Assembly (NCBI GenBank): GCA_003661385.1
Contig: QMWA01000111.1
Coordinates: forward strand, 1-5,948
Reading direction: 5' to 3'
Length of the DNA: 5,948 nt
DNA from: Thermoproteota archaeon
Lineage (GTDB): Archaea > Korarchaeota > Korarchaeia > B14-G2
Part shown: positions 4,518 to 5,948 of the stretch, piece by piece
How the letters are laid out: each line of letters starts with the position of its first letter
Numbering within the stretch: position 1 is the first letter of the stretch
The notes under the pieces: generated by a model
The model's database searches: none
The model's input: only the letters and a program-made list of their open reading frames with translations
Told to the model about the DNA's origin: nothing
Position numbers and translations under genes: made by a program

Positions 4518-4601
4518 TGCCAGACCCACACAGAAGCAGCTAGCCCCCAGTACTCCTAGCCTAGGGTGTTTAAAAACAGTAGAGACCGAGCTAGGAGACA
4601 C
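4518..4601. promoter_or_regulatory. Shared divergent promoter region
   Basis: These 84 bp separate the divergent ATPase and DUF3800-like genes. The only TATA-like element is TTTAAAAAC at 4569-4577, read as GTTTTTAAA on the minus strand. On the minus strand, a start site about 26 bp downstream gives a leader of about 28 nt for the ATPase. On the plus strand it puts the start site almost at the ATG at 4602, a nearly leaderless message. An 8-bp inverted repeat, CTCCTAGC (4553-4560) and GCTAGGAG (4590-4597), is centred at 4575, within the box, so one regulator could govern both directions. No clear purine-rich BRE is visible on either side. Confidence 0.5.
4593..4597 (+). promoter_or_regulatory. 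Ribosome binding site of the DUF3800-like gene
   Basis: AGGAG ends 4 nt before the ATG at 4602. It supports that start over the GTG at 4566, which would put TATA-box sequence into the coding region. The site is also part of the GCTAGGAG arm of the inverted repeat around the promoter. Confidence 0.55.
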
Positions 4602-5168
4602 ATGCTCGTAGCAGGCATCGACACAAGTGGCAGAATAGGGCAGGCGCCAATATACATCGGGGTAGCTGGCGCAGAGAGCATGAAACAGGCCATAGAAGCC
4701 AGGAAACCCATCAAGGTAGCAGGAGAGCTGAAGTACTCCAAGCTACGCCCACAGGTCACCATGGTAGTAGAGAGCCTACTACACCACGGGATAGAGGCCA
4801 TAGCCCTCAAGGCAAGCAGGCCACTACTCGAAGAGCTCAAGAGCAAGCTAGGAGGGATGAGGCTCTGGAAGATCAAAATACTCACAGCAGCATACACCAA
4901 AGCAGCAATAGAAGCTGCAGACGCCAAGATACTGCACCTAGAAGTCGACAGAGACTACGGGCCTAGAGAAATGTCCTACATAACAGCCAGACTCCAAAAG
5001 AACCTGAGGAAAGCCGGAATAAAGCCTATAGTGGCAGCAATAGACAGCAAGCACTCAGTACTAGTCCAGTACGCAGACTGCATAGCAGGATACGCCAGAA
5101 TCCACCCGAAAAGCCCCAAAATCAAAATCCACATCCTAAAGCCAGCAGACATCCTAGAATACATATGA
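4602..5168 (+). CDS. DUF3800-like protein, predicted RNase H fold
   Basis: The protein has 188 residues. An N-terminal strand carries an acidic residue, LVAGIDTSG (2-10, Asp7), followed by a second strand, PIYIGVAG. A mid-protein 'ELKYSKLRP' (42-50) follows, then strand LHLEVDRDYG (111-120, Asp116/Asp118), and a C-terminal IDSKHSVLVQYADCIAG (147-163, Asp148, Gln156, Asp159). The order D-x-S-G, K-x-S, and finally an S-x(6)-Q-x-A-D-x-x-A-G motif is the pattern I associate with DUF3800. This is a large, poorly characterised family with an RNase H-like core, often found in mobile or defence settings. Enzymatic activity is not known. The N-terminus also recalls RNase HII (GIDEAGRG), but the rest does not fit. 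The gene is divergent from the ABC operon. Coding-strand composition is odd: only 5 of 188 codons end in T. Two 38-bp repeats begin 2 bases after its stop. Confidence 0.7.
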   Translation: MLVAGIDTSGRIGQAPIYIGVAGAESMKQAIEARKPIKVAGELKYSKLRPQVTMVVESLLHHGIEAIALKASRPLLEELKSKLGGMRLWKIKILTAAYTKAAIEAADAKILHLEVDRDYGPREMSYITARLQKNLRKAGIKPIVAAIDSKHSVLVQYADCIAGYARIHPKSPKIKIHILKPADILEYI

Positions 5169-5169
5169 T

Positions 5170-5207
5170 TAGCTGCTGCAGGTCGCCTGCTCACCCCCAC
5201 AGCAGCA
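5170..5207. repeat. 38-bp direct repeat, copy 1
   Basis: Begins TAGCTGCTGCAGGTCGCCTG and ends CTCACCCCCACAGCAGCA; identical to the copy 46 bp downstream. Each unit can fold: outer stem GCTGCTG (5172-5178) with CAGCAGC (5200-5206), inner stem CAGG (5179-5182) with CCTG (5186-5189) around a TCG loop, leaving a C-rich single strand (5190-5199). It begins 2 bp after the DUF3800-like gene. Its role is unknown; it could be a structured 3' end, a protein-binding site or a remnant of a mobile element. Confidence 0.9.
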
Positions 5208-5215
5208 TCAAGCGA

Positions 5216-5253
5216 TAGCTGCTGCAGGTCGCCTGCTCACCCCCACAGCAGCA
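5216..5253. repeat. 38-bp direct repeat, copy 2
   Basis: Exact copy of the unit at 5170-5207, separated from it by 8 bp (TCAAGCGA). A degraded core, CAGGTAGCCTGCT (5286-5298), matches 12 of 13 bases of the repeat's CAGGTCGCCTGCT and keeps the CAGG/CCTG stem. The short spacer argues against a CRISPR array. Confidence 0.9.
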
Positions 5254-5272
5254 CTAGGTAGAGGAGGACTCT

Positions 5273-5302
5273 GTATTTAAGCCTTCAGGTAGCCTGCTTA
5301 AA
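5273..5302 (+). promoter_or_regulatory. TATA-like element with dyad upstream of the ribonucleotide reductase gene
   Basis: TTTAAGC (5276-5282) and GCTTAAA (5296-5302) form a perfect 7-bp inverted repeat around 13 bp. GTATTTAAGCCT (5273-5284) resembles the proximal box GTATTAAGCCT at 5360-5370. It could be a distal promoter, an operator, or both. Confidence 0.4.
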
Positions 5303-5324
5303 GTTGAGTCTAGAGCTGCTATGC

Positions 5325-5370
5325 GGTTTTAAGCTACATGAGAGCTTGTGGGAGAAAGAGTATTAAGCCT
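5325..5370 (+). promoter_or_regulatory. Candidate proximal promoter boxes of the ribonucleotide reductase gene
   Basis: Two TATA-like boxes: TTTTAAG (5327-5332 region) and TATTAAG (5361-5367). From the second, a start site about 26 bp downstream falls near 5391, giving a very short or absent leader before the ATG at 5398. That agrees with the lack of a Shine-Dalgarno sequence there. From the first, the leader would be about 40 nt. Placement is by spacing rule only. Confidence 0.45.
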
Positions 5371-5397
5371 GTGCTGGACTCAGCTCTCAGATGTAGC

Positions 5398-5948
5398 ATG
5401 GGGATAAAGCTAACTGAGACAGCTCGCAGAGTCCTTGAGAAGAGGTACTTGCTTAAGCGGAATGGTAAGGTCATAGAGACACCTGAGCAGATGTTCAGGC
5501 GAGTGGCTAAGTGCATAGCTGGAGTCGAGAAGAAGTATGGGAAAAGCGACAGCTTTGTCGAGAAGCTTGAGGAAGACTTCTACAAGCTCATGAGCACGCT
5601 GACATTCTTGCCTAATTCACCTTGCCTGATGAATGCTGGAACTGAGCTTGGGCAGCTTTCTGCTTGCTTTGTGATCCCTGTTGAGGACTCTATTGAGGGT
5701 ATATTCGACGCGTTGAAGGCCATGGCTGTGATCCAGAAGTCTGGTGGCGGGACTGGTTTCTCCTTCTCGAGGATTAGACCTGAAGGGGATGTTGTCAGGA
5801 GCACAGGTGGTGTTGCAAGTGGGCCTGTGAGCTTCATGAAGATATTCAACGCTGCAACAGAGCAGATCAAACAAGGCGGGCGGCGGCGAGGAGCTAACAT
5901 GGGGATACTGCGTGTAGACCACCCTGACATCGAGAAGTTCATAACAGC
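5398..5948 (+). CDS. nrdJ: Adenosylcobalamin-dependent (class II) ribonucleotide reductase, N-terminal part
   Basis: The first 183 residues are present and the frame runs off the window. The enzyme reduces ribonucleotides to deoxyribonucleotides for DNA synthesis, using B12 to generate the thiyl radical, so it works without the class I beta subunit. [13 protein letters not shown] (residues 7-19 region) and [11 protein letters not shown] (27-37) are the N-terminal segment typical of class II enzymes. [11 protein letters not shown] (71-81) leads to [12 protein letters not shown] (87-98), where Cys90 should be the first cysteine of the substrate-reducing redox pair. [16 protein letters not shown] (113-128), [16 protein letters not shown] (140-155) and [12 protein letters not shown] (160-171) are near-invariant. 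The radical-site cysteine and C-terminal cysteines lie beyond the window. The ATG at 5398 fits the family N-terminus; an in-frame ATG at 5338 would add 20 residues. Third positions are T-rich compared with the upstream gene. Confidence 0.95.

Follow-up and report, generated by a model that had tools for sequence, protein, structure and literature searches.

Introduction

Why does an archaeal genome carry two identical 38-bp repeats directly behind a gene for a DUF3800 protein, and which strand of this DNA, if either, would be read as RNA? DUF3800 proteins adopt an RNase H fold in which the catalytic residues are rearranged, and they have been linked to putative non-coding RNAs (PMC10910872). 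Several DUF3800 RNA families are present in Rfam (PMC11701678), and some VI-F and V-A2 CRISPR loci encode DUF3800 (PMC12669027). A literature search found no paper giving the function of DUF3800. Here we argue that the repeat pair is probably a small RNA gene on the minus strand (~5253 to 5170, 84 nt) that has its own archaeal TATA promoter (5284-5272), lies tail-to-tail with the DUF3800 gene, and stands where DUF3800-X and related RNAs are found in other archaea, with a sequence unrelated to theirs.

Results

A repeat pair behind a divergent DUF3800 gene

The window is an entire contig (C111, 5948 bp) of an archaeal genome of 1.74 Mb in 206 contigs, which is the sole representative of its family in our phylum sample of 29 genomes. 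The 38-mer TAGCTGCTGCAGGTCGCCTGCTCACCCCCACAGCAGCA occurs in it at 5170-5207 and again at 5216-5253, the two copies being 100% identical with a period of 46 and separated by the 8-bp spacer TCAAGCGA (5208-5215). This is exactly the arrangement given in an initial annotation of the DNA, which described two identical 38-bp repeats, 8 bp apart, in non-coding sequence behind a DUF3800-like gene. The repeats are indeed non-coding, as the DUF3800-like reading frame stops at 5166-5168 (TGA), so that the first copy begins 1 nt past the stop, and as 46 is not a multiple of 3. The pair exceeds chance: over 377 kb of sequence sampled from this genome, the next longest exact direct repeat within 300 bp measured 27 bp. 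The annotation was also right to set CRISPR aside, since there are two copies with an 8-bp spacer and an array is expected to have spacers of about the length of the repeat. For iteron-like binding sites, one of the options it listed, we found nothing in favour. Elsewhere in the window, repeats of ~54-63 bp at 1282-1726 lie in a DUF4097 'toastrack' gene and are an ordinary coding repeat of a beta-helical protein.

The 8 nt that follow copy 1 (TCAAGCGA, 5208-5215) and those that follow copy 2 (CTAGGTAG, 5254-5261) show six differences, all of them transitions, and the chance of zero transversions among these differences is ~0.4%. With this mismatch, a simple recent tandem duplication of 46 bp does not account for the pair.

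The gene in front of the repeats (4602-5168, plus strand) encodes a 188-aa protein that we identify, from its sequence, as a divergent member of the DUF3800 (RNase H-fold nuclease) family. Its PF12686 score was 19.8 bits, slightly below the cut-off of 21, and an HMM trained on 22 further DUF3800 proteins from archaea detected it at E 3.5e-5. Its IDTSG, GELK, VDRD and S..Q.AD.IAG motifs align with the family. By sequence alone, the protein had no relatives among genome contigs, viral contigs, phages, plasmids, its own phylum and one other archaeal phylum, and an AlphaFold model of the protein on its own was unusable (pLDDT 41).

The minus strand has the stronger fold

The strand read initially was the plus strand. 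Its described fold, in which the stems are nested, the loop is TCG and a C-rich arm stays unpaired, was recovered, but it is not exceptional for the genome: the plus-strand 93-mer folded at -39.5, and 969 of 25,030 genome windows did better after GC correction. The minus-strand 93-mer folded at -49.3 kcal/mol, and as good a fold was found in just 10 of the 25,030 windows. Nine of those ten lie within the first 4 kb of the contig that bears the 16S 3' end, and for this reason presumably belong to rRNA. The minus-strand 84-mer alone had a z of -4.0 against shuffles. Of the options in the initial annotation, the small structured RNA, taken here with a tie to the RNase H-fold protein next to it, is supported by position, orientation, promoter and the archaeal DUF3800 parallels described below. 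The strand looked at initially was probably the wrong one, the minus strand being the remarkable one.

If the plus strand were nonetheless the functional one, the repeats could be a 3'-UTR element of the DUF3800 mRNA, with nested hairpins exposing UCACCCCCA, which resembles the anti-Shine-Dalgarno end of 16S rRNA (GAUCACCUCC) and could pair with ribosome-binding sites. In favour of this, 1 nt separates the element from the stop codon, GGATCACCTCC is the sequence at the 16S 3' end in this genome, GGTGA/GGGGT motifs are enriched ahead of starts, and one 16-nt match, at another genomic site, overlaps a gene start with GGGGGTGA. We consider such an element improbable, given the low rank of the plus-strand fold and the finding that the known RNA of other archaeal DUF3800 loci lies on the strand opposite the gene.

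A probable promoter at tRNA-like spacing

A promoter profile was learned from the genome's own gene starts. Its highest score over 4520-5420, on both strands, fell on AGGCTTAAATACA (5284-5272, minus strand), a TATA box with a purine-rich flank that ranks in the top 5.6e-5 of the genome background. As the profile is weak, we made a comparison with the tRNA genes of the same genome, which have TATA boxes ~22-31 nt upstream. The window TATA, CTTAAATA, lies at -28 to -21 relative to 5253, where unit 2 of the repeat begins on the minus strand. With this spacing, a minus-strand RNA would run from the first base of unit 2 to the stop codon, unit 2 (5216-5253) forming its 5' half, with a predicted start at ~5253, and unit 1 (5170-5207) its 3' half, ending 1 nt from the DUF3800 stop codon. 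No clear T-run terminators were found at the tRNA genes of this genome. In the window's genome, ARAGORN predicted a tRNA-Pyl with an intron at L058:5150-5243.

On the other side of the repeats lies a gene for the large chain of ribonucleotide reductase (RNR; 5398-5948, plus strand; PF02867 and PF00317), with its start inferred at ATG 5398, which is not thought to be part of the proposed system. Direct repeats are typical of operators, and the element is ~145-230 bp upstream of the likely RNR start, so a regulatory DNA site with two operators for this gene has to be weighed. We judge it less probable still than the 3'-UTR element. The RNR promoter is inferred at ~5370, more than 100 bp away, and 19 RNR loci of the same class had no comparable repeats. 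An operator would also not require a unit with 11 bp of self-complementarity, a fold like that of an RNA, or a TATA box in the reverse direction.

A predicted rod, or two kink-turn-like hairpins

Each unit begins with GCUGCUGUGGG and ends with CCUGCAGCAGC, so that the two units of the proposed minus-strand RNA can either fold apart or pair together. They are predicted to form one two-fold-symmetric rod or two kink-turn-like hairpins. Folded separately, the units reached -42.2; joined in one rod they reached -49.3, with a predicted pair probability >0.99. The predicted rod has two 11-bp helices flanking a two-fold symmetric internal loop with GGUGAGCAGGCGA on each side, and in the fold of minus-strand 5170-5253 the 8-nt spacer (5208-5215) closes it as a small hairpin loop (AUC/GAU around GCUU). 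The minus-strand element totals 84 nt, which is close to DUF3800-X (model of 73 positions; matches mostly of 71-94 nt). No homologue of the 38-nt unit was found in our searches, and its stems are predicted from two identical copies in one genome.

Each half of the element also contains a kink-turn sequence, consisting of a helix, the 3-nt bulge GGU, and GA opposite GA. A motif scan placed the kink-turn-like cores (GGU bulge, GA, GCAGGC, GA, atop an 11-bp stem) at 5229-5241 in unit 2 and, identically, at 5183-5195 in unit 1, both on the minus strand. By the definition that we used (PMC10573300), a kink-turn has a 3-nt bulge and tandem G.A and A.G pairs between two helices; the likeness of the units to it is one of sequence, and the helix past the GA pairs just GC..GC. 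The motif with an 11-bp helix had no other site in 754 kb of strand sequence. It was noticed before being scanned for, and its chance on a given hairpin is ~1% by estimate. We treat it as a lead. Kink-turn hairpins like those of the window were not found beside other DUF3800 genes, where there were a few weaker motif matches away from the gene ends.

An RNA of this kind might bind L7Ae independently of DUF3800, as a guide-RNA-like molecule or an L7Ae decoy, and the bulge, the tandem GA.AG and the length of the stem, unequalled for this motif in the 754 kb, speak for such a role. We rank it below the operators in probability: there was no match to Rfam C/D or H/ACA families, the predicted lowest-energy structure is a rod in which one unit is paired to the other, a GA..GA motif at the estimated ~1% per hairpin is not rare, and the position of the element is tied to DUF3800, as in other archaea.

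The same layout at other archaeal DUF3800 genes

DUF3800 genes were gathered from 393 archaeal genomes. DUF3800-X RNA (RF02984) was present at 4 of 20 scanned archaeal DUF3800 loci, and in all four, once gene orientation was corrected, it was on the opposite strand behind the gene. RF02984 was also sought independently in 246 genomes, which gave 30 loci, 18 of them with a DUF3800 gene in reach. In 17 of these 18 the RNA was on the opposite strand at the 3' end of the DUF3800 gene, either downstream of it (14) or overlapping its end (3), and the gap from RNA to gene was -6 to +10 nt in 13 of the 14 downstream loci. Upstream of the RF02984 RNAs, AT content reached its maximum, 0.89, at -28 to -25. 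For a convergent DUF3800-associated RNA gene, a TATA of its own is expected ~21-31 nt ahead of the start, and the window has one in this range.

Four DUF3800 loci of the same class as the window (L061, L062, L063 and L066) have a DUF3800-X-like RNA at the matching spot, with the core GAUGAUGCC...UGGGAC. An Rfam search had not picked up these RNAs. In the alignment of these RNAs, 99% of pair cells were kept and two pairs had changed on both sides, which with n=4 is not separable from chance (113 of 500 shuffles). Sliding the partners in this four-sequence alignment destroyed the pairing.

Structure behind the stop codon extended beyond the loci with a recognized RNA. On the opposite strand, the median best z was -3.0 for 30 archaeal DUF3800 genes and -1.0 for 124 controls, with a p of 1e-9 that is too small because related loci were treated as independent; the window had a z of -5.3 in the same comparison. 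The sense strand behind DUF3800 genes was likewise more structured than in controls (p 3e-7), as expected of any hairpin, so the minus strand is preferred for its fold energy, its promoter and the parallels. What the window shows (the repeats, a minus-strand fold of very high stability, a correctly spaced TATA box) goes with a layout seen at further DUF3800 genes of archaea: convergent, with the RNA ending at the stop codon and a TATA near -28. We regard this comparative layout, as read from the sequences, as the decisive evidence for a probable RNA gene.

Several other structured elements were seen in this survey. An RNA of the form GGGUAAGUCC, long stem, GUACC(U)UGAGGUGCAC-like loop, GGGUCC is recurrent in archaea on the opposite strand behind the DUF3800 stop (loci L068, L070, L071, L073, L079, L081, L082, L084 and L088), with no Rfam match there. 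Two copies of a GGGCGGTCACGCCCC hairpin, at L091:1259 and 82 bp on, lie near the 3' end of another DUF3800 gene, and L076 has a similar hairpin. An exact 38-bp hairpin-forming direct repeat (L061:1330-1367 and 1416-1453) immediately precedes another DUF3800 gene. The L061 sequence is that of L062 with 86 bp added (38+48), which leaves two repeat copies in one genome and one in its relative.

Direct repeats near DUF3800 genes, which the initial annotation had suggested looking for, were rare: L061 was the only one of 31 other loci with a repeat of at least 30 bp. Repeats as such are therefore not the rule; structure is. A search of the genome and of relatives for the 38-mer, also suggested, gave no further copies in its own genome. 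Its 21-22-nt core had no exact match in viral contigs or in 84,980 species genomes, a set from which the records of the window's own genome may be missing. The annotation had taken a 38-mer occurring only here and without conservation to count against it; this is how the sequence behaves, but position and architecture are conserved nonetheless. Least probable of all the explanations we weighed is a neutral or mobile duplication (a REP-like element, as once proposed, or a slippage product) that is there by chance: perfect identity can mean recent duplication, and L061 has, where L062 lacks, an 86-bp insertion that shows 38-bp direct repeats, but the 38-mer is confined to a single genomic place with no dispersed copies, six of 8 sites differ between the spacer and the 8 bp after copy 2 as against none in the 38 bp, and it has a strong fold and a promoter at the expected spacing.

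Relation to known RNAs

The candidate minus-strand RNA resembles DUF3800-X, a structured RNA of 70-90 nt, in several respects. It is convergent with and opposite to the DUF3800 gene, has its 3' end at the stop codon (gap 1 nt), has its own TATA near -28, and is predicted to form a rod with a purine-rich internal loop. In contrast to DUF3800-X, it is built of two identical 38-nt units and lacks the GUAAG and GAUGAUG/UGGGA motifs, reading GUGAGCAGG with no GAUGAUG. Nor is its sequence detectably similar: neither DUF3800-X nor any other Rfam family matched in 5100-5400 up to E 10, and the gathering cut-off was not reached. Model R3 gave a best E of 8 in the window's own genome and 11.1 bits on the window with filters off, and model R2 had no match at other DUF3800 genes. 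A weak R3 match (18.8 bits) was seen at L064:2231-2299, on the minus strand, directly behind a divergent DUF3800 gene. Weak covariance matches in the window's own genome were rejected as CTG-rich chance matches by appearance; one of them overlaps a gene start with a Shine-Dalgarno-like run. The window RNA may be a far-diverged copy of DUF3800-X or a replacement for it.

With the RNAs of L061, L062, L063 and L066 the window RNA shares its class and its position and orientation behind DUF3800 genes, but its units are unrelated to them in sequence, and the layout of these relatives has an inserted hairpin. The Rfam families DUF3800-I and -IX are structured RNAs named after the same gene family (PMC11701678) and had no match in the window.

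A further comparison is with the ToxI RNA of type III toxin-antitoxin systems. ToxI is located upstream of the toxin gene, on the same strand. It consists of RNA repeat units beside a nuclease gene (PMC8860590), an arrangement that the window resembles. Unlike ToxI, the window RNA would be downstream and convergent, with a TATA directed toward the opposite strand, and the protein is a DUF3800 rather than a ToxN-kind endoRNase.

Discussion

What would an RNA gene in this position do? In the model that we propose, the minus-strand RNA would be transcribed from its own promoter and would join the DUF3800 nuclease in an RNP as its cognate partner, whether in the role of substrate, cofactor or inhibitor. 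The two identical units would be kept as the two strands of one rod, with the symmetric internal loop GGUGAGCAGGCGA on both sides giving room for two kink-turns, and such a two-fold symmetric rod could suit a dimeric protein.

A wider proposal, which we offer tentatively and think unlikely, is that archaeal DUF3800 genes are a general two-part RNP system with a convergent RNA that has its own promoter and whose sequence can be swapped wholesale. In the window, the two identical units of this RNA would make up a two-fold symmetric rod, and with its paired kink-turns the rod would bind a DUF3800 dimer as guide, scaffold or inhibitor. The orientation rule may already be known.

The layout rule, a convergent RNA with its own promoter and its 3' end on the stop codon, indicates where to seek the RNA partner of any DUF3800 gene, even at loci with no model match, and makes the question whether DUF3800 works with such an RNA directly testable. 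The window offers a version pared down to two identical 38-nt units, which would make a small substrate for this purpose.
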